From Acidobacteriaceae bacterium (GTDB lineage Bacteria > Acidobacteriota > Terriglobia > Terriglobales > Acidobacteriaceae): a stretch of 37,991 nucleotides of DNA. Below the pieces are notes generated by a model that was given only the letters and a program-made list of their open reading frames with translations, made no database searches and was not told the DNA's origin. The first letter of the stretch is position 1. Each line of letters starts with the position of its first letter. The stretch covers positions 1 through 37,991 of the forward strand of contig JASHPD010000177.1 in the NCBI GenBank assembly GCA_030038315.1, written 5' to 3'. A program made the position numbers and the translations under genes. Positions 13,987 to 37,881 of the stretch are shown here, piece by piece.

Positions 13987-14009
13987 CTCCATATTCAGCT
14001 CACGGTAGA

Positions 14010-14309: not shown

Positions 14310-14359
14310 TTTCGCACTCTTCAGCGTGTGAAGTTTTTGCATCAGGAAAGAAGGCGGTC

Positions 14360-14983: not shown

Positions 14984-14996
14984 TCAACTCTTCAAA

Positions 14997-15437
14997 TTAT
15001 TTAGCCTTGCCATGACCGATCGCGTTACAGATGTCTTTTACGGCATTTGCCAATTCATGTGTCTTTGCACTAAATACCGCATCCCCATCCTTGTTGAATA
15101 ATGCAAATTTATATCCCCTTGATTGGCCGTTTGGAGTGCAGCACCATGAATGGCCTGCTTCCAAGCGGTAGTCTGCTTTTTCAGCACTATCCGTTAAAAC
15201 AACACCGCTGCATTTTGCGCTGAATTCCTTGAGTAGATCGGCACTTGAAATCTCGCCTTGGACACTATTGACGTCTTTATCCGATATCCAGATACGCACA
15301 GGAGCATTTGACGGAGCACTCGAAGATGGGTTCTGCGCATAAACAAAACTGGAAAACAAGATAAGAACCATACAGCTTTGTGTCAATCGCCGCACAAATT
15401 TCTCCCATTCTGAATTTGCCCCAAGGGTATCACGCAA
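14997..15437 (-). CDS. Small secreted hypothetical protein
   Basis: 146 aa; signal-peptide-like VRRLTQSCMVLILFSSFVYAQ; lower GC. Confidence 0.5.
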   Translation of the reverse strand: MRDTLGANSEWEKFVRRLTQSCMVLILFSSFVYAQNPSSSAPSNAPVRIWISDKDVNSVQGEISSADLLKEFSAKCSGVVLTDSAEKADYRLEAGHSWCCTPNGQSRGYKFALFNKDGDAVFSAKTHELANAVKDICNAIGHGKAK

Positions 15438-15466
15438 AGCTAATTAGTTTTCTAGCAACTAAACAT

Positions 15467-16204
15467 TCAGCCCCACTCCCCCACCGTCACAAAACGGTGC
15501 GTCCCCGCATACCGCTCCAGCAGCCGTCCCGCAGCCGTGATAGAAGCCTCCCGATTCGCCTTCGGCTCCTGGTGCCCGCCGTCGTGCAGCACGATATTCG
15601 CCGCAAATCCGCGCCGCGTTAGCCGGTCGATCTTCCCGCTCAGATTCGCGGCAATGCGTTCTGGGGAAGGCTCGTTCCAGTCGCTCGTCATGGCGTTCCA
15701 CAGCACCGGCGTCATGCCCAGCTCGCGCGCGGCGCGCAGCACATCCGGGCGGCGCGCTCCAAAGGGCGGACGAAAATGCCGCACGGGTTTGCCGATGATC
15801 TGCTCCAGCGCGTCTTTCGTATTGCGCAGCTCCTCGCGAACCTTCGCTGGCGCGGTCAATGCCAGATTTGGATGCGACCACGAGTGATTGCCGATTGCGT
15901 GGCCGTTGTTGGCGATGAAGCGCGTCAGCACCGACTGCTCGCTTGCATATTTGCCGACGAGAAAGAACGTCGCCTTTACTCCATATTGGTCCAGCAACTC
16001 CAGCAGCCGCGGCGTCCATGCCGGATTCGGCCCGTCGTCAAAAGTCAGCGCCAGCTCGCCCGGCTTTCCCAAATCAAGTCTCGGAGCAATCAGCGTGCGG
16101 CCAAAGATCTGCGAGCCCGGCCACAGAGCCGCGTAGGCACAGCCGCCCGCAAGCAGCCCAATCGCCGCCGCGCCAATCGCCGTTTCCGCCAGAATTCCTG
16201 CCAT
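15467..16204 (-). CDS. Polysaccharide deacetylase family protein (NodB homology domain, CE4-like)
   Basis: LALTFDDGPNP, IGNHSWSHPNL, RPPFGARRPDVL, IVLHDGG motifs; start trimmed from 16261 to MAGILAETAIG. Confidence 0.93.
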   Translation of the reverse strand: MAGILAETAIGAAAIGLLAGGCAYAALWPGSQIFGRTLIAPRLDLGKPGELALTFDDGPNPAWTPRLLELLDQYGVKATFFLVGKYASEQSVLTRFIANNGHAIGNHSWSHPNLALTAPAKVREELRNTKDALEQIIGKPVRHFRPPFGARRPDVLRAARELGMTPVLWNAMTSDWNEPSPERIAANLSGKIDRLTRRGFAANIVLHDGGHQEPKANREASITAAGRLLERYAGTHRFVTVGEWG

Positions 16205-22311: not shown

Positions 22312-25300
22312 TTACTGCACGACCACGGTGAGCGGGATGCTTTGCACGGTTCCGGCAGTGACCTGGACCTCGATGTTGTAGGTACCGGCCGGGGTGTGTC
22401 CCGCGCTTGAAGAGCCGCCGGCGCATCCGGTGAGGCTGCCGACTCCGGCGATGCCGGCCAGGAGCAGGGCCATCAGGGCGAGGTAGCGGCTGAGGCGCTT
22501 GCGCGCTTTGCCCAGCGCCAAAAGGCCGGCGAAGATTCCGGCGAGCGCGGCCAGCGGCACGGCGCCTGAAGCCAATCCGGAGCCGTGCCGCTGCGCGGAG
22601 GCCTGCGCGCCGGTTCGGGAGATTGCGCTGGAGCTGCTACTGGTTGCGCTGGACGAGCCGCCGGTGGAGATTGTCAGCGTGGTGCTGGCTGTTGTGGTGG
22701 ATGAGGTGAAGGTGGAGGTTGCGGGCGAGAAGCTGCACGTCATGTCTACGGGCAGCAGCGCGCAGCTATACGTGGCGGTTCCGGTGTAACCGCCCTGCGC
22801 CGCGATGTTGACGGTCACGGTGGCTGTTGATCCGGAGGAGACGTTCACCGAGGAGGACGACGTGGTTCCGCTGACGACGGGGACGGTGACCGTTTCACTA
22901 ACCGGAGATGAGGTCGAGGCAGTGAAGTCGGTGCTGCCGGCGTAAGCGGCGGTCACGCTCAGCGCGCCTACAGGCAGGCTGCTGGTGGTGCAGGGCGCTA
23001 CGCCGCCGGAAAGCGTGATGGTGCAGATAGTGGAGCCGCTGGCGGAAAAGACCACCGAGCCGCTCGGCGTGCCGCTGGTGGCGGAGGCCACGGTTGCGGT
23101 GAAGGTGACTGAGTCTCCGGAGCCGATGCTCGGGTTCGATGTGGCCAGCGTGATGGTGGTGCCGGCCTGCGTGACGGTCAGCGTGCCGGGCGTTACGGCT
23201 CCCAGCGCGTAGTCGGCTGCCGCGGAGCCGGCGAGCGCCGTTGCGGTGATGGGATAGCTGCCTACCGACGAGGTTGCCGTGGCTGTTGTCGAATAAACGG
23301 CTGTGACGTTGGCGGCATCGGCAGGCAGCACGCCGGTGAGCGTTCCGCTAAAGGCCGGATTCGCTGCTCCGTAGGCGCGCGTAGCGTTGTTGACGGCGAC
23401 GGCGACGGCGGAGGCTTTGATGCTGACTGTGGGCGAGCCGGTGAGCGTGACGGTGTAGTTGCCCGCGGCGGAGCCGGTGAGCGCCACGGTGATGGGATAG
23501 CTGCCCACCGGCGAAGCGGAAGTTGCCGTGGTGGAGAAGACCGGCGTTACGTTGGCGGTGTCCGCGGCGAGCACGCCGGTGAGTGAGCCGGTGATGGCCG
23601 GAATGGCCTGGCCGTAGGCCGCGGTGACGGAGTTGGCCGTGGCCGTGATGGCGAGCGGCGTGACCGCCAGCGAGCCCTGCGTGACCGTGCCGAGCGTGTA
23701 GTTGCCCGCGGCGGAGCCGGTGAGCGCCGTTGCGGTGATGGGATAGCTGCCCACGGCTGAGCTTGCCGTGGCTATTGTGGAGTAGTTTGCCGAAACATTC
23801 GCCGCATCCGCGGCGAGCACGCCGGTGAAGGTTCCGCTGAAGGTTGGATTGGCCGCGCCGTAGGTCTTTGTGGCGTTGGCGATGGCCAGCGTGACCGTGG
23901 CCGGGGTGATGGTGACCGTGGGCGAGCCGGTCGTCGTGACTGTGTAGTTGCCCGCGGCCGAGCCGGTGAGCGCGCAGGTGATGGGATAGCTGCCCACTTT
24001 GGAGCCCGCTGTGGCCGCGGACGAGCAGCTTGCGGCCACGTTGGCAGTATCCGCGGCGAGCACGCCGGTGAGCGAGCCGGTGATGGCCGGGATGGCCGTG
24101 CCGTAGACCGCGCTGACGGAAGTTGCCGAGGCCGTGATGGCCAGCGGCGCGACAGTGAAGGTGAAGGTTGTGGCGGTGCTCGATGGATTGAAGTTCGCGC
24201 TCGTGCCCGGCGTATAGCTGGCGGTGACCGTGTGCTGGGCCGCGCTGAGTCCGGTGAGCGTGAAAGCATAAGCGCCGCCGGTAAGCGTCTCCGCCGCGCT
24301 GGCCGTGCCGCCGTCCACGGTGTAGGTGATGGTTCCGGCGGGGGTGTTGCTGCCGCTCTGCGGAGCCACGGTCACCGTCAACTGCACGCTGCCGCCATAG
24401 ACCGGCGAAGCGGGACTCAGGTCGCCGATGGTGGTGGTGGTATCGACCTTGGCCACGGTATTGGTTCCGGTGAGCGTCAGCGTGGGATTGCCGTTGACCG
24501 AGTTGCCGGTGAAGGTCACCGTGTCAGTGAGCGTGCCTGTTGCCGAGGGGACAAAGAGCGCGGTGTAGCCGCAGTTCTGGCCCACGGCAAGGGCAAGCGA
24601 AGCGGTGCCGGGGCAGCCGTTGCTCGAAGCGTCCGTCAGCTCGAAGTCGGTGCTGTCGGTCGAGGTGAGCGTGCCGCTATAGGCAACATTGCCGATGCTG
24701 GTGACGGTGGCGTTCAGCGGGTCGCTGCTGGCGTCGTAGGTCTGCGCGGAGGCGTTGCGCGGGTAGTAGAGGACGCCGGTCTGGGAGGTGTCGGCCAGGT
24801 AGACGCCGCCGTTGGCGTCGAGCGCCACGCCCGCTGGCGTGGTGAGGCCGGAGGCGATGACGGAATTTGCGCCGCTGGCGGGAATCTCCACGACTTCGAG
24901 CAGCGCGGTGTCGGTGTAGACCACGTCGCCGGCCGCATCGACGGCGAGGCTGGCCGGAGCCACGCTGCCGGCCAGGGTCGTTTGCGTGCCGCTGGCGGTG
25001 ATCTTGACGATGCTGTCGATGCCGGTGTCGGCTACGTAGACGTTGCCGCCGGCATCGACGGCGACGGCGACGGGAGTCTCAAAGCCGCTGCCCAGAACCC
25101 TGGACTGGCCGCTGACCGGCACGAAGAGCACACGCGCGTTGCCGGTATCGGCGATGTAGAGATTGCCGGAGCCATCCACGGCTACGCCCTGCGGGCTGCT
25201 GAGGTTGGAGCCGCCGAAGGCGCTGACGGCGGTTGTGAAGCTCGTTGCGCCGGAGGCCAGCTCCGCAATGCGGTTGTTGCCGGTGTCGGCCACGTAGACG

Positions 25301-27402
25301 TCGCCCGCGCCGTCGATGGCGATCTGGTGCGGATTGACGGTGGCTCCGGTGATGGCTGTGGCCAGCGGCCCGGCGGGCGTGCTGGAAAGCGTTCCGTTCT
25401 GCCACGCGATGTAGGTGTTGCCCGCGGCGTCGGTGGCCACACCCTGCGGAGCGGTTCCCGAGCCGATGGCCGAGGACGCGCTGGGGTCGATGGCCAGCGC
25501 CGCGCCGAGGCCCGTACCGTTGAGGAAGGCGGTTGAGGTCATGGCGGCGCTGTTGACGGTGGCGGCGATCTGAACCGCGCCGGCGCGCAGGCCGGCTTTG
25601 GCCGGGGTGAAGGTGACGGGAACCACGCAGGTGCTGTCGGCCTGGGTGCCGGCGTTGTCCGGGAAGCCGGTGAGCGTGGTCGAGCCGGTGCAGGTGTCGG
25701 CGCTGCCGCCGGGATTGACGAACTCATTGCTGGCCGTGCCCTGCGTGACGACGGTTGCGGCCACATTGCTTGCGGCCTCACTGGAGCTGCCGGTGAGGAG
25801 CGAAAAGGCGATGGACTGCGTAGCAGCCGCCGTGCCGACCGATGTGGCCGGGAAGCTGCTGAAGGTGAGCTTGCGGATGAGGCCGTCGTCGTTGTCGGCA
25901 AAGTAGAGGTTGCCCTGGGAATCGAAGGAGGGATTGCCCTCGGCGTGGTGCGCGCTGGCCTGCGTGGCCGGGCAGCCGTCGCCGTAGGCGTCGGTCATGG
26001 CAGGGCCGTTCGAGCCGCCGTTGCAGTAGTCGCCGCTGCCGAGCGAGGATGCGACGGAGCCGCCAGCAATGTAATACAGGTAGCCGTTGGATGCGTTCAG
26101 CTCGGCAACGGACATATCGTCCGCGCCGTTGTAGTCCACGATGTAAAGGTTGCCGTTGCTGTCGAGGGTGAGGCCGGTGATCCTGTCGAAGCCGACGTTG
26201 CTGGCCGTGGCCAGGCTGCCGTTGCCCACCGAGGTGCTTCCGCCGTTGGCGTAACCGGCGATGGTGTAAACGTAGCCCGCGGTGGGCGTGCTGACGCCGG
26301 TTTCGAGGCTGATGAGGTTGGCAACGGGGTTGTTGGAGCCGCCGGCGTAGATGACGCGCACGGATGCCGTCGCGCTGACTGCATCGGCGTTGTCGCCGAC
26401 GTAGACGTTGCCGTAGGCATCGACGGCGATGCCGGCCGGGTCCACGAAGGCCGCGCCGATGGCCGCCGTGTTGGAGGCCGCCGTGCCGCTCAGCGCGGTG
26501 CAGCCGGAGCTGGTGCAATCGCCGGCGATGGTGTGGATGTAACCGGGACCGACGCCGCCGCTGGTAGTGTTGGGGCCGTTGATCATGCGCACGGCGTCGT
26601 TCTCGTAATCGGCGATGTAGAGGTTCTCGTTTGCATCGACGGCGATGCCGTAGGACTCGTGGATCTTGCCGCTGGTGGCCAGCACGCCGTCGGCATAGCC
26701 GCCGCCTTTGCCGGCGACGAGGTAGATGGAGCCGACGGTGAGCGTTGCGCCGGAGTCTTCAAGGCTCACGAGCTGGGCTGCGAGGTCCGTGGAGTTGGCG
26801 AGCAGCACATACGCGTCGGATTCGCTCTCGTCGAGGATGAAGATGTTGCCGTCAGCGTCCACGGCGATGCCATAGGCCTTTTTGAGGTAGCTGCCGGTGC
26901 CGGGGCAGCCGCTGCCGTTGCCGCTTGGAGTGGCGCCGTTGGTGCAGGAGGACGGCGCGCCGGAGAGTCCGCCGGCTACCGTGTAAACGTCGCCGGCCAC
27001 GGGCGTGCCCACGGCGGAATTGGCGGCCTCAATCAGTGCCGTGGCGGGATTGGACACGCCGTTGACGATGACGGCGCCGGCGTAGATGACCTGCACGATG
27101 CCGGCGGAGGGAGTTGCCGCGTAGTAGACATTGCCCCACTTGTCCACGGCGGTGCTGTAAGGCGCAGTGATGGCTACCTGCGTGGCCGGGCAGCCGTCGC
27201 CGTAATTTGTGCCATCCACGTCAATCGCGCCGGAGCAGGTGGTGCCTCCGGCCTCAAGGCTGGCAAACGGCACCTGGACGAAGACGGGCGGAACGCCGGT
27301 CTGTGTGCCGGTCTGGGCGGAGGCGCAAAGAGATGCGGCGAAAACGGCGGCAAGGGCAAAGACTGGGGCGGAAAGAGTACGGAATAACGCGGTCTTTTTC
27401 AT
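22312..27402 (-). CDS. Giant secreted surface protein: signal peptide, two NHL beta-propellers separated by an ASH-like domain, Ig-like repeats, four MBG repeats, C-terminal TM1-basic-TM2-lipobox-like module
   Basis: MKKTALFRTLSAPVFALAAVFAASLCASAQ; repeated NLYIADYENDAV/DVYVADTGNNRI/NLYIADTGNARV; TYGAANPTFSGTFTGVLAADAANVSANYST MBG repeats; C-term SGLASGAVPLAALAGIFAGLLALGKARKRLSRYLALMALLLAGIAGVGSLTGCAGG...GTYNIEVQVTAGTVQSIPLTVVVQ. Start trimmed from 27429. Confidence 0.85.
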   Translation of the reverse strand: MKKTALFRTLSAPVFALAAVFAASLCASAQTGTQTGVPPVFVQVPFASLEAGGTTCSGAIDVDGTNYGDGCPATQVAITAPYSTAVDKWGNVYYAATPSAGIVQVIYAGAVIVNGVSNPATALIEAANSAVGTPVAGDVYTVAGGLSGAPSSCTNGATPSGNGSGCPGTGSYLKKAYGIAVDADGNIFILDESESDAYVLLANSTDLAAQLVSLEDSGATLTVGSIYLVAGKGGGYADGVLATSGKIHESYGIAVDANENLYIADYENDAVRMINGPNTTSGGVGPGYIHTIAGDCTSSGCTALSGTAASNTAAIGAAFVDPAGIAVDAYGNVYVGDNADAVSATASVRVIYAGGSNNPVANLISLETGVSTPTAGYVYTIAGYANGGSTSVGNGSLATASNVGFDRITGLTLDSNGNLYIVDYNGADDMSVAELNASNGYLYYIAGGSVASSLGSGDYCNGGSNGPAMTDAYGDGCPATQASAHHAEGNPSFDSQGNLYFADNDDGLIRKLTFSSFPATSVGTAAATQSIAFSLLTGSSSEAASNVAATVVTQGTASNEFVNPGGSADTCTGSTTLTGFPDNAGTQADSTCVVPVTFTPAKAGLRAGAVQIAATVNSAAMTSTAFLNGTGLGAALAIDPSASSAIGSGTAPQGVATDAAGNTYIAWQNGTLSSTPAGPLATAITGATVNPHQIAIDGAGDVYVADTGNNRIAELASGATSFTTAVSAFGGSNLSSPQGVAVDGSGNLYIADTGNARVLFVPVSGQSRVLGSGFETPVAVAVDAGGNVYVADTGIDSIVKITASGTQTTLAGSVAPASLAVDAAGDVVYTDTALLEVVEIPASGANSVIASGLTTPAGVALDANGGVYLADTSQTGVLYYPRNASAQTYDASSDPLNATVTSIGNVAYSGTLTSTDSTDFELTDASSNGCPGTASLALAVGQNCGYTALFVPSATGTLTDTVTFTGNSVNGNPTLTLTGTNTVAKVDTTTTIGDLSPASPVYGGSVQLTVTVAPQSGSNTPAGTITYTVDGGTASAAETLTGGAYAFTLTGLSAAQHTVTASYTPGTSANFNPSSTATTFTFTVAPLAITASATSVSAVYGTAIPAITGSLTGVLAADTANVAASCSSAATAGSKVGSYPITCALTGSAAGNYTVTTTGSPTVTITPATVTLAIANATKTYGAANPTFSGTFTGVLAADAANVSANYSTIATASSAVGSYPITATALTGSAAGNYTLGTVTQGSLAVTPLAITATANSVTAAYGQAIPAITGSLTGVLAADTANVTPVFSTTATSASPVGSYPITVALTGSAAGNYTVTLTGSPTVSIKASAVAVAVNNATRAYGAANPAFSGTLTGVLPADAANVTAVYSTTATATSSVGSYPITATALAGSAAADYALGAVTPGTLTVTQAGTTITLATSNPSIGSGDSVTFTATVASATSGTPSGSVVFSASGSTICTITLSGGVAPCTTSSLPVGALSVTAAYAGSTDFTASTSSPVSETVTVPVVSGTTSSSSVNVSSGSTATVTVNIAAQGGYTGTATYSCALLPVDMTCSFSPATSTFTSSTTTASTTLTISTGGSSSATSSSSSAISRTGAQASAQRHGSGLASGAVPLAALAGIFAGLLALGKARKRLSRYLALMALLLAGIAGVGSLTGCAGGSSSAGHTPAGTYNIEVQVTAGTVQSIPLTVVVQ

Positions 27403-27564
27403 GGACGGACAATTCCTCGGCAACAACATTCGAAACGGCTTGCAAAATCGCGGGCGCCTGCGCCCCTGCGCGGAGATTTCCCGCGGAGCAGGGACTGCCG
27501 AAACGCCGGCTGCGAACTTGCGGGTAGCAACTGCGGTAAGCCCATCGCGCCTGTGTGGCAGGAT

Positions 27565-27577
27565 GTGGTCTGACCAC
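27565..27577. promoter_or_regulatory. Palindrome GTGGTC-T-GACCAC, candidate GntR/FadR-type operator of the 22312-27402 gene
   Basis: Perfect palindrome 4 nt downstream of a minus-strand TTGACA (27606-27611)-N18-TAGTAT (27582-27587) promoter. Confidence 0.65.
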
Positions 27578-27581
27578 GCGC

Positions 27582-27611
27582 ATACTACTGAGGCGCGATA
27601 ACGGCTGTCAA
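27582..27611 (-). promoter_or_regulatory. Candidate sigma70 promoter TTGACA-N18-TAGTAT
   Basis: Consensus -35; near-consensus -10; implies a 5' UTR of about 170 nt for the gene starting at 27402. Confidence 0.55.
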
Positions 27612-27656
27612 GGAGATTCTCCGCGCGCGCCGGGTTACCGTTGCCGTGGGCTGCGA

Positions 27657-30416
27657 TTACTGAACGTTCACGGCGATTGTTGCCATGTGAGAAAGCGTTC
27701 CGGCTGCGGTGGTGACGGTGGCCGTAACGGTCGCGGTCTCGGTGCCGGGCGGTGGTGCCTGGTTTCCGCTATTGGTCGAACCACTGCTGCCGCCGCAGGC
27801 CGAGAGCGCGAGGCAGCAGACGGCCAGGCCGAGCAGCATAACGAGCCTGCGGCGCGCGCGGCGGCGCGTGAAAACCAGCACGAAAGGCAGCGGCAGCAGG
27901 CCGGAAGCCAGGGTGGAGGCAACGCTGACGCTGAGCGTGGCCGTTGCGGCGCTTGCGCTGCTGATGGTTGCCGTGCCGCCGGCGCAACTGATGTAGGTGG
28001 GCAGGCCGCTGCACGTGTAGGTAACGGTTCCGGTGAGGCCGCCGAGCGGCGTAAAGGTGAGCGTGGCCGTGCCGGAGCTGCCGGGCTCGATGTTCAGCGT
28101 GGATGGGCTTGCGGCAAGCGTGAAATCCTGCACCGCGACGGCGACCGGCGCGGAAACCGAAGCGGCATTGCTGCCCGCGCCGGCGTAGGAGGCGGTGATG
28201 CTGTGCGTGCCTCCGGCCAGCGAGGACGCGGTGAAGGTGGCCGTGCCGTTTGTGCTCAGGCTGGCTGTGCCGAGCGCCGTGGTTCCGTCGAGGAAGGTCA
28301 CCGTGCCGCTCAGCGCGCCGCTGCCGCCGCTTACCGCGGCCGTGAGCGTGACGGACTGGCCGGCATTGATCGTCGTTTGCGAGGCGGTGAGCGCGGTTGA
28401 GGTGGCCGTGTTCGCGGAAATCGTTACGGTCACCGCGGCTGAAGTGGAAGCGGCGTAATTCGAGTCGCCCTGGTAGGCGGCGGTGATGCTGTCGATGCCA
28501 GCGGGCAGGCTGGCCAAGGTGAGCGTGGCAATGCCGCCGGCGTTGAGCGTGGCCGAGCCGAGCGCGGTTGCGCCGCTGACAAAGTTGACTGTGCCGGTGG
28601 GCGTTCCGCCGCTGGTGGAGGTGACGGTTGCGGTGAGCGTTACGGATGCGCCGGCCAGCGCCTGCGTGAGCGAGGCCGTGAGCACGGTGGAAGATGCGAG
28701 CGCCGTGACGGTGACCGTGGCCGCGCCGGTGGTCATGGAGGCGTAGTTCGAGTCGCCGGAGTAGACGGCGGTGTAAGTGTGCGTGCCGGCGGTTTCGGTG
28801 TTGAGGGTAAGCGCGGCGAGATCGACGCTGCCGCTCAGCGTTACGCTGCCTACGCTAGCCGCGCCGTCGTAGAAGGTGACGGTTCCGGTGGGCTCGGTGG
28901 CGACGAGCGTGGTGGGCGACTCGATGACCGGCTCGAAGATGGCGGTGAGCGTGACGGGCGCATTGGGCGCTGACTGCTGCGCACTGGCGAAGAATTCCGG
29001 CGCGAGCGTGGGGAAGCTGGCGCTGGTGCAGCTATAGGCCGCTTCCGTTGAGGTGACGTTATCCGTCACCGTCACGTTGTTGCCGGCGTTGGTTGCAACG
29101 GGAATGTTCACAGGACCGGGGCCGAGCGCGATGTTGGCGTTCGAGGCCGTTACATCGCTCGACGGCAAGGCGGAGGAAAAATTCACGTTGTCGAGGGTGA
29201 GGCCGAGCGGGTACGCGGCGCTGTAACCCTCCAACTGCACGGTTCCGGGAGTGAGCACGGTAACGTTTGAGAGCAGGATGTTCTGGAATTGCGGGTATTC
29301 CGTGCCGGTGGAGCTGGAATAGAAGGGATTGAAGGTGATGGGCGTGGCGACGTTCGTCATGCAGACGTCTTCATAGGTCACGCCGTCGATGAGGCCGCCG
29401 TTGCTCGATTCGCTCTTGATGCGGATGCCGGTGTCGTTCGAGTTGGTCGGGTCGCCGTCGATGTTCAAATTCTGGACGAGAATGTTCGTTGCGCCGCCAC
29501 TGGTCTGGCTGCCGATGGACATGCCGTGGCCGACGTAAAAGTGGTTGTTGGTGATGCTGACATCGGAGACCGTTCCGCCGGTTGTGGCGCTGCCGCCGGG
29601 CTTGAGCGCGATGTTGTCGTCGCCGTCGCCGATGTAGGAATCGGTGATGGTCACGTTCTGCGCGGGGCCGGGATCGATGCCGTCGGTGTTGCGTGCCGTG
29701 CCGGGGGCGATGATCTTCACGTCCCAGACGGTGAGGCCGTTGCCCTCATAGGTGACGTGGAACATGGGCGAGTTTTGCAGTGTGATTTTGTAGAGCGTGA
29801 AGTTGCCGGCGTTGACGTTCAGCAGGACTGGATTGTTCTGGTTGAGGCTTTCTGCCTGCGCTTCGCTTGAAAGCTGCCACCAGGTGGTGTCGGCAGGCGC
29901 GCCGGCGCCGATGAGCGTCTGGCCGCCGCGGCCGTCGATGACGCCGTAGCCCATGATGGCGGCGTTTGCGCCGTTGACGCTGATGAGCGGGTTGCAGCCG
30001 TTGCTGTAGGAAGCGACGGTGCCGCATTCGTTGGCTACCGCGTCGTAGTCGCGCGGGTCGCGCGAGCCGTAGACGGTGACGCCGGCATCGACCAGAAGCG
30101 TTACGCCGGCGGGGATGGTGATGGGCTGGATCAGATAAGCGTTTGCGCCGCCGGAGCCTTGCGCAAGCTCAACCGCCTGGCCCGCGGCGCAGCCGTTGAG
30201 CGCGGACTGGATGCGGCTGGTGTCGAACTCGGTTTCATCGGCCGAGGGGAGCTGATTGCCGGTTTCGGTCAACTGCGCGGTGAGCACCGTGCAGGAGGCT
30301 GGAAAAACGGGCTCGGTGACGGTGCGCGTGTCCTGCGCGGCGGCCGTGCGCAGGCAGAGCAGGAAGACGAGAAACGAAAGCTGGGGGAAAATGCGCAGGC
30401 GCGGAATGGAAGTCAC
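27657..30416 (-). CDS. Secreted GH28 polygalacturonase-like enzyme with C-terminal Ig-like (Big_3_5-type) repeats and TM1-basic-TM2-lipobox-like module
   Basis: N-terminal SP; GYGVIDGRGG; GH28 catalytic motifs NTDG (ARNTDGIDPG), DD (IGDGDDNIALK), GHG (VGHGMSIGS), RIK (TGIRIKSES); three repeats like TVTFLDGTTALGTASLSTNGTATFTASSLAGGTHSITASYAG; C-term LASGLLPLPFVLVFTRRRARRRLVMLLGLAVCCLALSACGGSS. Confidence 0.9.
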   Translation of the reverse strand: MTSIPRLRIFPQLSFLVFLLCLRTAAAQDTRTVTEPVFPASCTVLTAQLTETGNQLPSADETEFDTSRIQSALNGCAAGQAVELAQGSGGANAYLIQPITIPAGVTLLVDAGVTVYGSRDPRDYDAVANECGTVASYSNGCNPLISVNGANAAIMGYGVIDGRGGQTLIGAGAPADTTWWQLSSEAQAESLNQNNPVLLNVNAGNFTLYKITLQNSPMFHVTYEGNGLTVWDVKIIAPGTARNTDGIDPGPAQNVTITDSYIGDGDDNIALKPGGSATTGGTVSDVSITNNHFYVGHGMSIGSQTSGGATNILVQNLNIDGDPTNSNDTGIRIKSESSNGGLIDGVTYEDVCMTNVATPITFNPFYSSSTGTEYPQFQNILLSNVTVLTPGTVQLEGYSAAYPLGLTLDNVNFSSALPSSDVTASNANIALGPGPVNIPVATNAGNNVTVTDNVTSTEAAYSCTSASFPTLAPEFFASAQQSAPNAPVTLTAIFEPVIESPTTLVATEPTGTVTFYDGAASVGSVTLSGSVDLAALTLNTETAGTHTYTAVYSGDSNYASMTTGAATVTVTALASSTVLTASLTQALAGASVTLTATVTSTSGGTPTGTVNFVSGATALGSATLNAGGIATLTLASLPAGIDSITAAYQGDSNYAASTSAAVTVTISANTATSTALTASQTTINAGQSVTLTAAVSGGSGALSGTVTFLDGTTALGTASLSTNGTATFTASSLAGGTHSITASYAGAGSNAASVSAPVAVAVQDFTLAASPSTLNIEPGSSGTATLTFTPLGGLTGTVTYTCSGLPTYISCAGGTATISSASAATATLSVSVASTLASGLLPLPFVLVFTRRRARRRLVMLLGLAVCCLALSACGGSSGSTNSGNQAPPPGTETATVTATVTTAAGTLSHMATIAVNVQ

Positions 30417-30510
30417 GGTAAAAGCTGCTCGCAGAGGAAAAATGAGAAACCGAAGGCAGAAAGAAGGATTGCACGCGGGTCAGACAACAGGCAAGCGAAA
30501 GATTGCATAT

Positions 30511-30520
30511 TGGTCTGACC
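30511..30520. promoter_or_regulatory. TGGTCTGACC, candidate operator of the GH28 gene (second degenerate copy GGTCAGAC near 30478-30485)
   Basis: Core GGTCTGACC identical to the 27565 palindrome core; about 95 bp upstream of ATG 30416. Confidence 0.55.
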
Positions 30521-30649
30521 TCTAGATTTTTCAGAGCTGGCTTCGCAGCCTGGATGATGGGAAATATCTTGTATTTTCGGATAGAATTTGGATTTTCAGG
30601 AAAATATAGCAGTGAATGGGGTTCGATTTTGCGGCCAGGAACGAATTTC

Positions 30650-30660
30650 AGGTCTGACCA
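30650..30660. promoter_or_regulatory. AGGTCTGACCA, candidate operator of the VWFA-related gene
   Basis: Core GGTCTGACC; about 70 bp upstream of TTG 30728. Confidence 0.55.
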
Positions 30661-30727
30661 CAGAGGCGTAGTTTGAGTGATTATGATGGAAGCTGTCTGC
30701 CGCTGACGATTCCGGAGGTTTTCTTTC

Positions 30728-32281
30728 TTGCGCAACGCACTGGCCGTTTTTGCCCTTGGTTTTTCTGTTTGCGGATTTGCTTTCGCGCAGGCTCCTGCCG
30801 CGCCGGAGCAGGAGCCGACGCTTTCCGTCACGACGCGGCTTGTGGTGCTGGACGTTGTGGTGACCGATAAGGCCGGCCACACGGTGCCGGGGCTGACGAA
30901 GAGCGACTTCACCGTGCTTGAGGACAAGCAGCCGCAGACGATCCGTTACTTTGAAGGGCCGGAGCAGCACAGGCTGCCGGCGGGCGTGGAGATTCATTCG
31001 ACGGCCGACCTGGCCAGGGTTCCCGATGCGCCGGTGACGATGATTGTGCTCGATGAGCTGAATACGCGCTTTGAGGACATGGCGTATGCGCGGCAGGCCG
31101 TGGTGAACTACCTCAAGAGCCAGCCGACGCGGCTGGCGCAGCCGACGGAGCTGCTGGTGGCGAGCAACACGAAATTTCAGGTGCTGCAGGATTACACGCT
31201 GGACCGCGATGCGCTGCTGGCGGCGCTGAAGAATCACTTTCCGCAGTATCCGTGGCGGCTGATGCAGAGCGGCAAGGGCGGGCCAGGCACGGCGGAGCGG
31301 CTGGCGATGTCGCTTGGCTCGCTCGAACAGATTGCGCAGGCTTCGGCGGGGCATCCGGGACGCAAGAACGTGATCTGGGTGGGGCGCGGATTTCCGGCGG
31401 TGAATACGAACGAATCGACGGACGCGGAGGCCGCGGTGATTGAGCAGGCGGTGCGGCACGCGATCGGGATGATGCGCGACGAGCGCATTACGCTGACTTC
31501 GATTGACCCGACGGAGGTTTCCGCGGGGACGGTGCTGATCCAGACGCCGGACGACCTTGACGCCGCCGAGGACGAAAACGGCAGCGATCCTTTTGCGGGC
31601 GATGTGAACTTTCAACTGCTGGCTCCGGCGACGGGCGGGCGGATTTTTGCCTCGCGCAACGACGTGGATGCGGCGATTGGCACGTCGGTGCGCGACGGGG
31701 ACAACTACTACACGCTGAGCTATGAGCCGACGAACCGGAGCGACGCGGCGGCTTACCGGCGGATTGAAGTGAAGATGAATCGCCCCGGCCTGCACGCGAC
31801 GACGCGCAACGGCTACTATACGCAGGCCGCGGCGACGGCTGCGTCGGCGGAGACGGGGAATCTTGAGTTATTGCGCAAAAAAATCGCGTTCGACCTGGGC
31901 AGCGCAGCGAACAGCAACATTGCTTATACCGGCCTTGCAGTTGCGGCGCATCCGGTTGCGGGCGCGGCGGGGGTGCTGGCGGTAGACGTGGGCGCGAGGG
32001 ATCTCTCGCTGAGCGAGCTGGAGGACGGCTCGGGACCGGATTCGGCGCGGGCAGAGGTGACGCTGATGGTGGCCTTCTTCAAGGACAACCGGATGATCGG
32101 CCACGAGATCCGGGAGATGGCGGCAAAGCTGGTTGCGGGGCAGGGCGCGGGGACGATTGAGTTTCGGATTCCGGCGCAGATGCCGGCGGGAGCTACGCGG
32201 GCGCGGGTGATTGTGCGCGATACGGCCAGCGGGAAGATGGGTACGGCGGATCTTTCGGCTGCGGTGTATGGAGGGAAGTAG
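30728..32281 (+). CDS. VWFA-related Acidobacterial domain protein (TIGR03436-like), secreted
   Basis: 517 aa, TTG start; LSVTTRLVVLDVVVTDKAGHTVPGLTKSDFTVLEDKQPQTIRYFE then VTMIVLDELNTRFEDMAYARQAVVNYL, typical N-terminal part of this family. Confidence 0.88.
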   Translation: MRNALAVFALGFSVCGFAFAQAPAAPEQEPTLSVTTRLVVLDVVVTDKAGHTVPGLTKSDFTVLEDKQPQTIRYFEGPEQHRLPAGVEIHSTADLARVPDAPVTMIVLDELNTRFEDMAYARQAVVNYLKSQPTRLAQPTELLVASNTKFQVLQDYTLDRDALLAALKNHFPQYPWRLMQSGKGGPGTAERLAMSLGSLEQIAQASAGHPGRKNVIWVGRGFPAVNTNESTDAEAAVIEQAVRHAIGMMRDERITLTSIDPTEVSAGTVLIQTPDDLDAAEDENGSDPFAGDVNFQLLAPATGGRIFASRNDVDAAIGTSVRDGDNYYTLSYEPTNRSDAAAYRRIEVKMNRPGLHATTRNGYYTQAAATAASAETGNLELLRKKIAFDLGSAANSNIAYTGLAVAAHPVAGAAGVLAVDVGARDLSLSELEDGSGPDSARAEVTLMVAFFKDNRMIGHEIREMAAKLVAGQGAGTIEFRIPAQMPAGATRARVIVRDTASGKMGTADLSAAVYGGK

Positions 32282-32310
32282 CAGACGGCGCTTTTCTGTT
32301 GTGGGAATGG

Positions 32311-32469
32311 GCTATTATGGCGCGGATGCAGAAAGTCTCAAACTGAGGCGAAAAGCATATCTCAGGGCCTAAATGAAACTTCCCACCTAAAGGCCCCACT
32401 TATTACTGACTTTATTGCCGGGGCTAAAAAAGCCCCGGCCTACCTTTTGTGCGTCAGCGCCATAATAGC
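32311..32469. mobile_element. MITE/REP-like element of 159 bp with terminal inverted repeats
   Basis: Perfect 13-bp inverted repeats GCTATTATGGCGC (32311-32323) and GCGCCATAATAGC (32457-32469), extendable imperfectly to about 20 bp; internal hairpin GCCGGGGC-TAAAAAA-GCCCCGGC (32417-32439). No clear target-site duplication seen. Confidence 0.5.
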
Positions 32470-32605
32470 GAAGAAATTTTTGGGCACAAACACCGAAACA
32501 ACGCTACAGAAGGTAGTCTCGAAGATCGTATCCCTACAGTGCATTCTCCCAGCCGGTCGGAATGGCATCTGAGTCCTCCGTGGGCGCATAATTTTCAGAG
32601 AATGA

Positions 32606-32618
32606 ATTACAATGTAAT
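32606..32618. promoter_or_regulatory. Palindrome ATTACA-A-TGTAAT, candidate TA autoregulatory operator
   Basis: Perfect 6+1+6 palindrome 13 nt upstream of the antitoxin ATG (32632). Confidence 0.5.
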
Positions 32619-32631
32619 GCAGAGGTGCAAG

Positions 32632-32898
32632 ATGGCTGCCGCAAACGCGCTGGTACAGACTCGCATCAACCCGAAAATCAAGGCCGAGGCCGCCGCTGTC
32701 CTCGAAACCATCGGCCTAACCGTGTCCGACGCGGTGCGCCTCATGCTTACGCGCGTTGCGCATGAGAAGGCGCTTCCGTTTGAACCGCTGATTCCGAATG
32801 CAGCGACCATCGCGGCGATGCGCGATGCGCGCGCCGGCAAGGTTAAGAGCTTTAGCAGCGTTGAGGATTTGATGACGGACCTGAATGCGGAGGATTGA
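32632..32898 (+). CDS. RelB/DinJ-family antitoxin
   Basis: 88 aa: MAAANALVQTRINPKIKAEAAAVLETIGLTVSDAVRLMLTRVAHEKALPFEPLIPNAATIAAMRDARAGK; RBS AGAGGT upstream; overlaps toxin by 14 nt. Start trimmed from 32449. Confidence 0.9.
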   Translation: MAAANALVQTRINPKIKAEAAAVLETIGLTVSDAVRLMLTRVAHEKALPFEPLIPNAATIAAMRDARAGKVKSFSSVEDLMTDLNAED

Positions 32899-33166
32899 TC
32901 GTACCGCCAAATTCAAGCGCGACTACAAGCGGGAATTGAAAGGGCCGCATCGGGCCTATCTCGCGGAGCATTTTGCCGGAGCGGTAGCGGCTCTCGCCAA
33001 CGATGATCCGTTAGAAGCGCGCTTGTATGACCACGCTTTAACCGGCGATTGGCGGGGCTTTCGGGATTGTCATATCAGGCCCGATCTTGTGCTGATTTAT
33101 GCAAAGCCTGACTCTGAGACGTTGCAGCTCGTCCGCCTTGGATCGCATTCTGAACTAAGTTTGTAG
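32885..33166 (+). CDS. YafQ-family mRNA interferase toxin
   Basis: 93 aa: MRRIDRTAKFKRDYKRELKGPH...LYDHALTGDWRGFRDCHIRPDLVLIYAKPDSETLQLVRLGSHSEL, typical YafQ/RelE C-terminal pattern. Confidence 0.9.
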   Translation: MRRIDRTAKFKRDYKRELKGPHRAYLAEHFAGAVAALANDDPLEARLYDHALTGDWRGFRDCHIRPDLVLIYAKPDSETLQLVRLGSHSELSL

Positions 33167-33420
33167 GGACTGCGCCCTGGCAATTCGGCCCGGCCGCCTG
33201 CGGATTTGCCCGGAACGTATCCCGGCGCCGGCATCCAAGCCCGGCGCGATGCCAGACTCAAAGGCAAAGCCTGCTTACTCTAACGGGATCATCCAGGATT
33301 CGAGCTTATTGATTCGAGCTTATCGCGCAGCTTGAATGCAGCTAGGCGTATTTTGCTCTTGCCCATCTGCCCCGGCCCGACGCCTCTCATCCTTTGCAAA
33401 ATGGCGTGGGAATGCAGCAA

Positions 33421-33450
33421 GGCCCGGTTCCTGACGGAACCGGGCCTTTT
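33421..33450 (+). terminator. Rho-independent terminator GGCCCGGTTCC-TGAC-GGAACCGGGCC-TTTTTT
   Basis: 11-bp stem, tetraloop-sized loop and T-run on the + strand; sits between convergent genes. Confidence 0.8.
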
Positions 33451-33473
33451 TTGCTGCTCGGAGGAATGTTGGT

Positions 33474-36400
33474 TTAGTGAAGCAGGGAAGCGATGGACAG
33501 GTTTGTGTGCAGCGCCAGGGCGTGAGCGGCTGGCGCGCCCATCGGAAGCGGGTTGGCTTTCGCGGTGACGGGCGTGGCGGCTACCACGGTGAGAGTCAGT
33601 GTCTGGGTTTGGGTGACGCTGTTCTGGCCGGTCAGCGTGACTGTTACGGTGCTGGTGCCGGTGGGCGTGACCTGCGCGGGCTGCTGGGTGATGTTGCTGG
33701 TACAGCCGGAGAGCGCGGTCAGGCCGGAGAGCGCGAGCACCGCGAAGGCGATGGTCCAGAGCACACTGCGTTTCCTGTTGCTGAAGATTCCGCCTAAACC
33801 GAAAAGCAGGCTCGGAAAGAGGATGGCCAAGGCCAGCCCCGAACCGTGGCCAGCGCCGCGGCTCATGCCGTCGGCTTTAGCCTGCGTAGCGGCGGGTGAG
33901 AGGTTGGTGGCGATCGTCAGCGTGGTGCAGACGGTGGAGGCCGGCATGGACGCGGGCACGGTGCAGCTCGGCACGGAGGTGGGATTGCCGCCGAGGTTGA
34001 GCGTTGTCGGGTAGAAGGTGCAGTTGGAGTTTGCGGGCAGGCCGGAGCAGCTTAGCGTGACGGTTCCGGTGAGGCCGCCCTGCGGGGTGACGTAGAGCGT
34101 GGTCTGCGCCTGGCCGCCCTGCGGAATGCTGAGCGAGGTGGTTTGCGCGCTGACGATCATGCCCGGAGGGATGGGGTTGATGGTGAGCGCGACGGCCGCC
34201 GAGGTGGACGTGGCGTAGTTGGGGTCGCCGGAGTAGACAGCGGTGACGGAGTAGCCGGCGATGGCCAGGGAGCTTGTGGTAAAGGTAGCTGCGCCGGTGG
34301 CGCTCAGCGTGCCGGAGCCGAGGACCGTTCCGCCGGAGACGAAGTTCACGGAGCCGGTGGGCGTTCCGGTGGTGGAGGAGGTTACCTGCGCGGTGAAGGT
34401 GACCGGCTGGAGCTGGATTTGCGTGGTGGGCGAGATGGTGAGCGTGGTGGTGGTGGCCGCCTGCGCTACCGGGACGGAAAGTGTGGCGTTCGAGGATGCG
34501 TAGGTGTTGTCGCCGCTGTAGACTGCGCCGATGGTGTGGTTGCCGACGGGGAGGGTGATGGTGAGCGTGGCCTGGTCGGAAGCGCCGAGCGTGATGGCCG
34601 GCTGGCGCGTGCCGTCCACTGAGAAGACGATGGTTCCGGTGGGTGTGCCCGAGCCGGAGGTTGGGGCAACGGTGGCGGTGAAGGTGGCAGACTGGCCGTA
34701 GGTGAGCGCGCCGGTGGGGCTGGTTTGCGCGAGCGTGGTGGTAGTGGTGGCCAGCATCACGCCGTTGCCGGTGAGCTGGAGGCTGGCCGCGCCCTGATTC
34801 ACGGCGTTGCTGGCGAAGGCCAGTGTCTCTGCGAGCGCGCTCTGCGTGGCGGGATCGAAGGCGGCGGCGAGGGTGCAGTTGGCGCCGGCGGTTACGGTGC
34901 CGGAACCGGCACAGGCCGTTGTGGCGGAGGTGTCGAGGGTGAAGTCGGCGGTGTCTCCGGTGGCCGTATAAACGGGCGAGTTTGCGAAGGTCAGCGCGGC
35001 GTTGCCGAGATTGGCCAGCGTGGCCGTCTGCTCAGGCGTGGCAACGTTGAGGTTGCTGTTGCCGAAGGCGAGCAGGGCGCTGTTGCGGTTGTCCGCGATG
35101 AGGCGGTTGTTGGCGGTGTCGGCGACGTAGAGATTGCCCTGCGCGCTGGCGGCAATTCCCTGCGGGCTGCTGAGGAGCAGCTCGCTCGCGGCTCCGGTTC
35201 CGCCGCTGGAGCCGGCTGTGCCGCCCTGGCCGAGCAGCGTGGAGATGGTTCCGGTAGCGGAGCTGACGATGCGGACGGCGGCATTGCCGGTGTCGGCGAT
35301 GTAGAGGTCATCGGCGGCGTCGAGTGCGATAGCCGTGGGCGCGTTGAGCGAGGCCGAAGTGGCCGCGCCGCCGTCGCCGGTGAAGGTGGACTGGCCGTTG
35401 CCGGCAACGGCCGTCACGAGGCCGGTGGCGGGGCTCAGCTCGCGGATGATGTTGTCGCCCGTGTCCGCAACGAAGACGTTGTTGGCGGCGTCGAGTGCGA
35501 GGCCCGTGGGCGCGTTGAAGACGGTGGAAGCCGAGATCAGCGGGCAGCCGTCGCCGTAATTGTCAGTGGAAGCGGAGCAGGCCACGTTGGCGTTGGTTCC
35601 GGCGTGGAGGTTGATGGCTCCGGTGCTGGAGTCCACGCGGCGGATGGCGTTGTTGCCGGTGTCGGCGATGAAGAGATCGCCGTCGGTGGAGACGGCCACG
35701 CCGGAGGGCGATTTCAGGCTCGCCTGGGTTGCGGGACAACCATCGCCGAGCGTGTCATTGGCGGCGGCGCAGGCTGTGGTAGCTCCGCCGGCGTAGGTGG
35801 AGATGAGGCCGGTCACCGGATTGACGGCGCGGATGACGTTGTTTCCCGTGTCGGCAATGTAGAGGGCGCCGCTGGGGCTGACTGCGACGGCCTTCGGGGC
35901 GTTGAGCGTGGCGCTTGTGGCGGCCTTGCCGTTTCCGGAGTAGCCCGCCGTGCCGGTTCCGGCGATAACGGTCTGCGTGAGCGTGGAGGCGTTGATCTCG
36001 ATGACGCGGTTGTTTCCGGTGTCGGCGATGTAGAGGTTGCCCTGCGCGTCGAGCGCCGCGCCCTGCGAGGCCGAAAGCCCGCTGCCGAGCGTGCTCACGG
36101 TGCCGGGATCGACGGTCATCAGCGCGGCCTGGCCCGTGCCGCTCATCGGGTACGAAGCCAGCTCGGATTTGGCGCTGACAATGGCGAGCGGAGCGGCGCG
36201 CAGGCCGGGATAGAGCGCGTTGAAGGTGACCGCGACGGTGCAGTTGTCGGTGTTGTCGGTGGCTACGGTGCAGGCCGGCGTGCCGAGCGTGAAGTCACCC
36301 GCATTGGCGCCGAAGGCGATGCCGTTCGAGGCGGCCGGCGTGTCGTTGGCCGCGAAGTGGACCTCGACGGTCTGCGTGGCGGCGGTTCCGGCGGCCGTGG

Positions 36401-37742
36401 CCGGGAAGGCCAGGTTGCTTGCGGCCTCGCGGATGCGCGCGTCGCCGGGATCGGTGATGTAGAGGTTGTTGAGCGCATCGACGGCTACGCCCAGCACGCT
36501 TCCGCTCGCGTAGAGCAGCGCCTGCGTGGCCGGGCAGCCGTCGCCCAGCGTGTCGGTCGCGTTGCTGCAGACGGTGAATCCCGTGGATGAGCCGGAGTAG
36601 CCCCACTGGCCGGCGACCGGCGTAATGGTCTGCGCGGTGGGATCGTAGAGATAGATCACGTCTTCGCCGGAATCGGCGATGTAGACATTGCCCGCGGCAT
36701 CGGTGGCTACGGCGTTCGGGCCGCCGAGATAGGTTGAGGCCGCGGTTGCAGGGAAGGTCGGAGCCGAGGTTGGAGCCGACGAGATGGAGTGGTCGCCGGC
36801 GATGGTGGAGATGATGCTGCTGCCGGTGACCGCGCCGCCGGTAGCGGTGACTTTGCGGATGACCTTGTTGTCGTAGTCTGCGATGTAGAGATTGCCGGCG
36901 GGATCGAAGGCGAGGCCGATGGGCTCATCGAGCAGGACACCGGAGCTGTTGGCTGCGGAGCCGTCGCCGCCGTAGCCGGATTTTGAGGAGCCGTTTGTGG
37001 CGGTGCCGGTGTTGTAGCCCACCACGGTGTTGATGTCGCCGGTAGCGGCGCTCACTTCGCGGACGACGTTGTTGCCGGTGTCGGCGATCCAGACATTGCC
37101 CTGGCTGTCCACGGTGACGCCGCGCGGCTCGTTGAGCGCGGCTATGTCGGCCGGTCCGCCGTCGCCGCTGTATCCCTTGTTGTTGCCGCTGTTGCTCTTG
37201 CCGGAAGGCGAGCCGGCCAGCACGGTCATAATGCCGGTCTGCATGTTGACCTTGTGCACCAGGTAGGCGTCATAGTCGGCGATGTAGAGGTTGCCGGCGC
37301 TGTCCACGGCGATGCCGCGCGGCGTCTTGAGCGTGGTCTGCGTGGCGGCGATGCAGTTGTCGCCCTGCTCGTCGATGGCCGCGGCGCAGAGCGTGCTGCT
37401 GCTGCCGCCGCCGGCTACGACGCTGATGATGCCGGTGGCGGCGTTGATCTCGCGGACGTCGTTGTTGTCGGCGTCCACGATGAAGACGTTGCCCTGTCCA
37501 TCGACGGCCAGGTCACGCATATCCGTCGAGAGCTCGGCGGCTGTTGCCGGCCCGCCGTTGCCGGACGAGCCGTTGCTGCCGTTTCCCGCGATTGTCGAGA
37601 TCGTCGCGGGCAGCACGACCGGCGCCTGGGCGCGCGCCGATGGCGCCGCTGTGAGAGTTGCAAGGCCAACGCAGATGGCGAGTGTGAGCCGACCGGACAG
37701 GCATTTGCCCGCCTTCCGCGATCGGTCGAATCCTGTTTTCAT
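33474..37742 (-). CDS. Giant secreted surface protein: two six-repeat NHL propellers flanking an ASH-like domain, Ig-like repeats, C-terminal TM1-basic-TM2-lipobox-like module plus extra tail
   Basis: MKTGFDRSRKAGKCLSGRLTLAICVGLATLTAAPSARAQ; 12 NHL motifs (NVWIADTGNNVV, NLYIADYDNKVI, NLYIADTGNNRV ...); Big_3_5-type Ig; C-term GSGLALAILFPSLLFGLGGIFSNRKRSVLWTIAFAVLALSGLTALSGCTSN...TLTLTVV. Start trimmed from 37871. Confidence 0.85.
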   Translation of the reverse strand: MKTGFDRSRKAGKCLSGRLTLAICVGLATLTAAPSARAQAPVVLPATISTIAGNGSNGSSGNGGPATAAELSTDMRDLAVDGQGNVFIVDADNNDVREINAATGIISVVAGGGSSSTLCAAAIDEQGDNCIAATQTTLKTPRGIAVDSAGNLYIADYDAYLVHKVNMQTGIMTVLAGSPSGKSNSGNNKGYSGDGGPADIAALNEPRGVTVDSQGNVWIADTGNNVVREVSAATGDINTVVGYNTGTATNGSSKSGYGGDGSAANSSGVLLDEPIGLAFDPAGNLYIADYDNKVIRKVTATGGAVTGSSIISTIAGDHSISSAPTSAPTFPATAASTYLGGPNAVATDAAGNVYIADSGEDVIYLYDPTAQTITPVAGQWGYSGSSTGFTVCSNATDTLGDGCPATQALLYASGSVLGVAVDALNNLYITDPGDARIREAASNLAFPATAAGTAATQTVEVHFAANDTPAASNGIAFGANAGDFTLGTPACTVATDNTDNCTVAVTFNALYPGLRAAPLAIVSAKSELASYPMSGTGQAALMTVDPGTVSTLGSGLSASQGAALDAQGNLYIADTGNNRVIEINASTLTQTVIAGTGTAGYSGNGKAATSATLNAPKAVAVSPSGALYIADTGNNVIRAVNPVTGLISTYAGGATTACAAANDTLGDGCPATQASLKSPSGVAVSTDGDLFIADTGNNAIRRVDSSTGAINLHAGTNANVACSASTDNYGDGCPLISASTVFNAPTGLALDAANNVFVADTGDNIIRELSPATGLVTAVAGNGQSTFTGDGGAATSASLNAPTAIALDAADDLYIADTGNAAVRIVSSATGTISTLLGQGGTAGSSGGTGAASELLLSSPQGIAASAQGNLYVADTANNRLIADNRNSALLAFGNSNLNVATPEQTATLANLGNAALTFANSPVYTATGDTADFTLDTSATTACAGSGTVTAGANCTLAAAFDPATQSALAETLAFASNAVNQGAASLQLTGNGVMLATTTTTLAQTSPTGALTYGQSATFTATVAPTSGSGTPTGTIVFSVDGTRQPAITLGASDQATLTITLPVGNHTIGAVYSGDNTYASSNATLSVPVAQAATTTTLTISPTTQIQLQPVTFTAQVTSSTTGTPTGSVNFVSGGTVLGSGTLSATGAATFTTSSLAIAGYSVTAVYSGDPNYATSTSAAVALTINPIPPGMIVSAQTTSLSIPQGGQAQTTLYVTPQGGLTGTVTLSCSGLPANSNCTFYPTTLNLGGNPTSVPSCTVPASMPASTVCTTLTIATNLSPAATQAKADGMSRGAGHGSGLALAILFPSLLFGLGGIFSNRKRSVLWTIAFAVLALSGLTALSGCTSNITQQPAQVTPTGTSTVTVTLTGQNSVTQTQTLTLTVVAATPVTAKANPLPMGAPAAHALALHTNLSIASLLH

Positions 37743-37853
37743 TGTTTTGAAACTCCAATCAGGTTTTTCTCGCGGCTGGAATGCTGTGGGTTGCGCTTCC
37801 CGCGCGCCAAGGCACAAGTCCCCATCCGGGCAAGACTTCAAGACCGATGTACT

Positions 37854-37881
37854 CTTATATGGTCCGACCACTCGTTGTCAA
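37854..37881 (-). promoter_or_regulatory. Candidate sigma70 promoter TTGACA-N16-TATAAG with a TGGTC-C-GACCA operator (37860-37870) in the spacer
   Basis: Minus strand TTGACA ACGAGTGGTCGGACCA TATAAG; operator lies wholly inside the spacer. Confidence 0.65.

Follow-up and report, generated by a model that had tools for sequence, protein, structure and literature searches.

Three large proteins encoded on the minus strand of the window, that is, the whole 37,991-nucleotide stretch of contig JASHPD010000177.1 (assembly GCA_030038315.1) from an Acidobacteriaceae bacterium, end in the same module. We read this module, with a probability of about 0.6, as a C-terminal immunoglobulin-like (Ig-like) domain that is split by a membrane hairpin carrying an internal type II signal, processed by Lgt and LspA, and lipid-anchored through the nicked Ig domain. 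The common C-terminal layout of the three proteins, here called A, B, and C, consists of a first transmembrane segment (TM1), a loop rich in arginine and lysine, a second transmembrane segment (TM2), a cysteine preceded by glycine or alanine, a linker, and two beta strands. This arrangement had been described in the first-pass annotation of the window, and the translations agree with it letter for letter at the positions given below.

The split nature of the domain becomes apparent by comparison with intact copies. Two profiles, one built on the approximately 75 residues before TM1 and the other on the tail that follows the cysteine, were searched together. In the C-terminal pairs, the two halves lie 50 to 84 residues apart in nearly all cases; within the same set of proteins, approximately forty internal domains are intact, with the two profiles adjoining (-8 to +5). 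Larger internal gaps pair different domains and contain no strong hydrophobic segment, with the exception of protein C of the window, which has an extension. In nine proteins an intact copy lies directly before the split copy, and both align through. In the tandem of locus L111, for example, the intact copy reads ..TSTLTVSTTSTTTAGSYTVSTTGTSG.., while the split copy reads ..TSTLTINASSN, followed by the hairpin, the cysteine, a GGG linker, and KSATYTVTVTGTSG.

Structural models point in the same direction. The AlphaFold2 model of the B module (160 residues, 70 sequences) contains seven strand segments, a low-confidence hairpin, and two further strands (134-144 and 150-159), with a block predicted local distance difference test score (pLDDT) of 86-94. 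In the model of the L111 tandem (279 residues, 9 sequences), the nine strands of the intact copy recur in the split copy, where helices 199-217 and 226-241 are inserted between strands seven and eight. Because the order of the nine strands is the same around the inserted helices, the beta-strand tail corresponds to the two final strands of the domain in front of TM1. As judged from sequence comparison and modelling, this Ig-like domain is split in its E-F loop and the tail supplies its strands F-G; model confidence and strand order suggest that these strands would pair with the first half. The earlier proposal of a truncated Ig fold complemented by the tail is thus supported both by homology with the intact copies and by the AlphaFold model of the last Ig domain with its tail, in which one Ig fold is built across the insert. 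A fold search of the Protein Data Bank with the module returned weak Ig-like matches only, none of them at E <= 0.001.

The second line of evidence concerns the cysteine, which is the only invariant column in our alignment of 70 modules (A3). The residue that precedes it (position -1) is glycine, alanine, or serine in all 138 distinct modules (G 77, A 46, S 15), compared with a background of 32% for these three residues in TM2; L, A, V, M, I, and G predominate at position -3, giving TM2 an end of the form [hydrophobic]-x-[GAS]-Cys, and G or S at most +1 and +2 positions. As a comparison set, we took N-terminal hydrophobic segments followed by a cysteine, obtained by a crude scan of 800 kilobases of the complete genome of a congener (G002), in which 21 of 43 have G, A, or S at -1 (Fisher p about 1e-16 against 138/138, for sequences that are not independent). 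The lipoprotein-like members of this set (LAGC, LSAC, LTAC, IAGC) resemble the tails. In most modules, 17 to 21 residues separate the last charged residue from the cysteine. In nearly all modules, the hairpin is poor in acidic residues and an 8-residue window contains at least three R/K, which fits a positive-inside topology. The segment after the cysteine measures 34 to 74 residues (median 43), with a linker rich in glycine and serine. The layout of n-region, h-region, and lipobox that had been noted in the three window proteins extends to the whole module set: the basic n-region, the hydrophobic stretch, the small residue at -1, and the cysteine of a lipoprotein signal are all present, and what differs is the position of the signal, which sits 34 to 74 residues from the C-terminus instead of at the N-terminus. 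The cysteines of the Ig half number 0 or 2 in 130 of 135 modules (none in 38), an even count that leaves the lipobox cysteine as the odd one.

How the loci were collected matters for these counts. Signal peptides and lipoboxes were judged by simple rules; the contig loci were seeded with a pattern located in the post-cysteine strand only, and the profile behind the genome-search loci includes the cysteine. When a profile of the post-cysteine tail alone was run among the loci, it gave 153 C-terminal hits, 152 of which have an upstream hydrophobic stretch and a cysteine; in the remaining one, L158, the C-terminal domain runs uninterrupted and has no hairpin. In the tail-only search of five whole genomes, the hairpin with its cysteine was found in all loci read except two, which hold intact Ig domains, C-terminal in L221 and internal in L230. 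The cysteine and the post-cysteine strand, whose lack of conservation in homologues had been named beforehand as an argument against an internal lipobox, are both strictly conserved in relatives. As a separate observation, the open reading frame (ORF) at L158:3802-6093 contains ..LSLCAFSC, a lipoprotein-like stretch. If this is an N-terminal signal of the protein itself, as it may be, a C-terminal tag would not be needed.

The mechanism that we propose on this basis begins with the export of the ectodomain by Sec. TM1 would then stop transfer, running from out to in and leaving the basic loop in the cytosol, and TM2 would re-initiate in the manner of an N-terminal lipoprotein signal, placing the cysteine at the periplasmic face (topology out, in, out). 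The simplest candidate enzymes are the housekeeping Lgt, which would add diacylglycerol to the cysteine, and LspA, which would probably cut before it, both steps being suggested by the sequence of the module. The short lipidated C-terminal peptide, with its strands F-G, would not separate from strands A-E on the N-terminal fragment but stay paired with them, and a nicked Ig domain would thus connect the ectodomain to its lipid anchor; the Gly/Ser-rich linker after the cysteine would suit a tether between the membrane and strand F. TM1, the loop, and TM2 would provide a second anchor, in the inner membrane, as long as no other protease removes them. Since these three elements stay on the N-terminal fragment, a cut before the cysteine does not by itself free the ectodomain, and the release by LspA envisaged in the first-pass annotation does not follow. 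A further step, in which Lgt and LspA cut in the middle of the domain, another protease removes TM1, and the Lol pathway takes the protein to the outer membrane, where strands F-G alone would hold it, would yield a two-chain surface anchor; we offer this extension tentatively, and consider it possible but doubtful.

Several points weigh against the proposed processing. LspA normally acts on N-terminal signal peptides, and its acceptance of TM2 behind TM1 and a large ectodomain is an assumption on our part. The sequences are related, so that module counts do not represent independent events, and part of the loci were collected with a profile that contains the cysteine. A strict motif, [LVI][ASTVI][GAS]C, fits only 38% of the modules and a relaxed one 84%, and in a few modules the wrong cysteine was assigned. 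The hairpin is modelled at low confidence by a program that ignores the membrane, and the TM1 of protein B is short, with about 14-16 hydrophobic residues that include two prolines.

The processing enzymes of the tail-bearing organisms are those of any lipoprotein-making bacterium, with LspA in single copy and Lgt present. LspA is single-copy in all 38 relatives with a hit, including those poor in tails, and a dedicated LspA was rejected for this reason. Lgt occurs in one to three copies that show no correlation with the tails; a dedicated Lgt was likewise rejected, since most of the sister family bears tails with a single copy, and two copies also occur in genomes elsewhere that lack tails. 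Divergent Lgt homologues (G000:C200, C347, C194, and relatives) were also observed, mostly two or three in the window's family and mostly one in the sister family. The first-pass annotation had asked for co-occurrence with a dedicated processing enzyme, and none was found among LspA, Lgt, exosortase, and rhombosortase, the CPBP enzymes of the myxosortase type not having been surveyed.

This result bears on two other explanations of the module. In one of them, TM1 and TM2 form a plain hairpin that clamps the last Ig domain to the inner membrane, and LspA makes no cut at the cysteine, which may still be lipidated by Lgt or may serve another purpose. A hairpin in the E-F loop suffices as an anchor by itself, the AlphaFold models indicate that a cut is not needed for the Ig domain to form, and no tail-specific processing enzyme was found. 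A plain hairpin, however, requires neither the invariant cysteine nor G, A, or S before it in 138 of 138 modules; moreover, no hairpin lacking the cysteine was seen, and the C-terminal Ig domains that lack a hairpin (L158, L221) also lack the cysteine. We regard an uncut anchor as unlikely, although not far-fetched. The other explanation takes TM1 and the arginine cluster as a sortase-type tag that an intramembrane enzyme would cut; TM2 and the tail would then be secondary or be discarded. With the RRR that follows it, TM1 looks like the TM-Arg end of PEP-CTERM, GlyGly-CTERM, and MYXO-CTERM, and in the window's genus TM1 is often preceded by GG; C-terminal tags of that sort have dedicated enzymes, and myxosortase depends on a cysteine near its transmembrane segment (PMC11980579). 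Against this, complete genomes that bear tails, such as G002, G009, and G018, have no exosortase, and rhombosortase (TIGR03902) exceeds its cut-off in none of 31 genomes, in a survey that did not extend to CPBP enzymes. Around TM1 there is no universal motif, whereas the cysteine after TM2 is universal. Processing of this type appears quite improbable to us.

Two further explanations concern the cysteine and the reading frame, and both were rejected. A disulfide between the cysteine and the Ig domain or a partner, in place of a lipid, would agree with the presence of two cysteines in most Ig halves, but the parity described above leaves it without a partner there, and the 38 cysteine-less halves nevertheless keep the cysteine after TM2, which makes this role very improbable. 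A separate small lipoprotein, comprising TM2, the cysteine, and the tail and translated from an internal start, is barely conceivable. TM2 and the basic loop do look like a free-standing lipoprotein signal peptide, and isolated windows weakly match the lipoprotein N-termini NF053532 and NF046053; still, a start codon with a Shine-Dalgarno-like stretch is present in only 11 of the 138 modules, the frame is continuous, and the tail is half of a domain.

The module, not recognised as a named sorting signal in the first-pass annotation, already has a place among catalogued families. NCBIfam 20.0 (June 2026) contains it as NF058595, "invert_tail", described as "lipo-invert putative C-terminal anchoring domain", with a curated cut-off of 37 bits. 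The likeness of the three tails goes beyond chance. The isolated tails of A, B, and C score 37.9, 46.4, and 45.0 bits, and 46.1, 48.5, and 45.5 bits in the genome search, all above the cut-off; the 70 modules of alignment A3 all match the model. When the full-length proteins were used as queries at E <= 5, only B was reported, A and C matching only as isolated C-terminal stretches, so automatic annotation may miss many modules. A and B stop at the last position of the model, and C has 35 residues more. The name "lipo-invert" suggests that the authors of NF058595 read the module much as it was read in the window. Searches of the literature collection consulted, including broader ones, found no paper on "lipo-invert" or "internal lipobox". 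Only the comparison with intact copies reveals a split domain whose second half is the tail, a point that may already be in NCBI's own notes.

The genome of the window has 13 tails above the NF058595 cut-off. Tails above the cut-off occur in 39 of 41 genomes (this one and its relatives), the remaining two being from other families of the class, and in none of 14 control genomes. At E <= 1e-8, matches were obtained in 36 of 297 sampled genomes of the phylum, namely all 31 listed genomes of the window's family plus five single matches in four other families; the 14 control genomes gave no match at this threshold. Every sampled genome of the window's family has tails, up to approximately 25 per genome, as does the sister family, and elsewhere in the phylum they are rare. 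The organism names of the contig loci with tails include Granulicella, Silvibacterium, Terracidiphilus, and other Acidobacteriaceae, and the distant cases L064 and L068 show the same anatomy of Ig half, hairpin, [GA]C, and tail. Among 35 nearly full-length tail proteins, the commonest passenger domains are Big_3_5, pro-kumamolisin activation domains (some accompanied by subtilase-type catalytic domains), SBBP/NHL/Kelch propellers, ASH/HYDIN-like Ig, chitobiase C-terminal-like, and arabinofuranosidase domains. A signal-peptide-like start was found, by a permissive test, in 44 of 49 complete tail ORFs. Such sharing of one end module by unrelated exported proteins gives it the look of a sorting tag.

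The three window proteins, all on the minus strand, were defined by translation, Pfam, NCBIfam, and the genome search. Their N-terminal stretches resemble type I signal peptides (..AASLCASAQ in A, ..LCLRTAAAQ in B, and ..LTAAPSARAQ in C), and their ectodomains are accordingly expected to be exported. Protein A (22312-27429, 1705 residues) has an NHL/SBBP propeller, four MBG_2 stretches, and two Big_3_5 stretches before the terminal module. The first part of its split domain (strands A-E) extends over approximately 22660-22875 by sequence and family profile, followed in the sequence by TM1 (22510-22575), the basic loop KARKRLSR (22486-22509), and TM2, an h-region ending in SLTG (22426-22485). 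The putative lipobox cysteine (22423-22425, codon 22425-22423) is placed by sequence, module set, and alignment, and strands F-G (22315-22392) by sequence and family profile.

Protein B (27657-30416, 919 residues) has a GH28 polygalacturonase-type domain and three Big_3_5 domains. In its module, strands A-E occupy 27921-28127 (strands 5-73 of the AlphaFold model), and TM1, of 14 residues (27870-27911), and the loop TRRRARRR (27846-27869) were read from the sequence. TM2, ending in ALSA (27798-27845), coincides with a helix of the model; the cysteine (27795-27797, codon 27797-27795) is the invariant one of the alignment, and strands F-G lie at 27660-27740, as modelled. Protein C (33474-37871, 1465 residues) contains NHL propellers, assigned by Pfam as NHL repeats, with choice-of-anchor D-like and Big_3_5 domains. 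Sequence and family profile give approximate limits of 33897-34166 for the first part of its split domain and 33582-33668 for strands F-G; between them lie TM1 (33783-33836), the loop SNRKRS (33765-33782), TM2 with its ALSG end (33705-33764), all three read from the sequence, and the cysteine (33702-33704, codon 33704-33702), supported also by the alignment. Unlike nearly all tails, C continues for 35 residues past the last strand (33477-33581, AATPVTAKANPLPMG...), which could reflect a lost stop codon or a real extension; by sequence and module set, such extensions are rare in the family.

Two other features of the window were recognised on the plus strand. Between B and C, at 32449-33166, two ORFs of 149 and 93 residues look by eye like RelB/DinJ and YafQ/RelE, and probably form a type II toxin-antitoxin system. 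At 30728-32281, a secreted protein of 517 residues has by eye the look of acidobacterial VWFA-related proteins, with no Pfam match at E <= 1e-5. The G+C content falls to 50% in 14001-16000, compared with 60-69% in the remaining window.

If our reading of the module is correct, the Lgt/LspA pathway, which is universal, accepts signals that lie within a protein, behind an exported domain and a first transmembrane segment. This would break the rule that lipoproteins are recognized at the N-terminus only, would add to each genome several lipoproteins that N-terminal predictors miss, and would explain the cell attachment of secreted kumamolisin-type proteases, pectin and arabinan enzymes, and giant propeller proteins in a large order of soil bacteria. 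Should the two-chain surface anchor also exist, it would be a sortase-free C-terminal lipid anchor for Sec-exported proteins, one that could release under force or unfolding.

Among known systems, NF058595 is the same module as the window tails, and the split-Ig reading of the tail was worked out in this analysis. The GAIN domain of adhesion G-protein-coupled receptors and the SEA domain hold proteolysed ectodomains non-covalently after an autocatalytic cut. The module would work in a similar way, as a cut domain whose last strand or strands stay paired, while its cut would be made by LspA; we claim no homology. No LPXTG motif followed by a transmembrane segment and a basic tail at the end occurs in the window tails, with only weak matches in a few family members. 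GlyGly-CTERM/rhombosortase and PEP-CTERM/exosortase share with the module a transmembrane segment followed by an Arg-rich segment near the C-terminus of secreted proteins, but they have no second transmembrane segment or lipobox cysteine, and their enzymes are absent or uncorrelated with the module. The type II lipoprotein signal (Lgt/LspA/Lnt; for example, Braun lipoprotein) has the same basic n-region, h-region, [GAS] followed by cysteine, and Gly/Ser-rich tether; the module differs in lying near the C-terminus, behind an exported ectodomain and a stop-transfer TM1, and its mature lipopeptide would be only about 35-75 residues long. MYXO-CTERM, a C-terminal membrane tag with an invariant cysteine, an Arg cluster, and predicted lipidation, is similar in these respects; its cysteine precedes a single transmembrane segment, without a lipobox and with a topology that its authors describe as inverted relative to lipoproteins (PMC11980579). 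The window tails depart from its pattern of cysteine motif, one transmembrane segment, and terminal Arg cluster, because beta strands follow their cysteine. The two arrangements are thus opposite: in MYXO-CTERM the Arg cluster ends the protein, whereas in the module the cysteine comes after the second transmembrane segment and is followed by a folded tail, TM1 turning the chain so that TM2 would have the ordinary topology of a lipoprotein signal.

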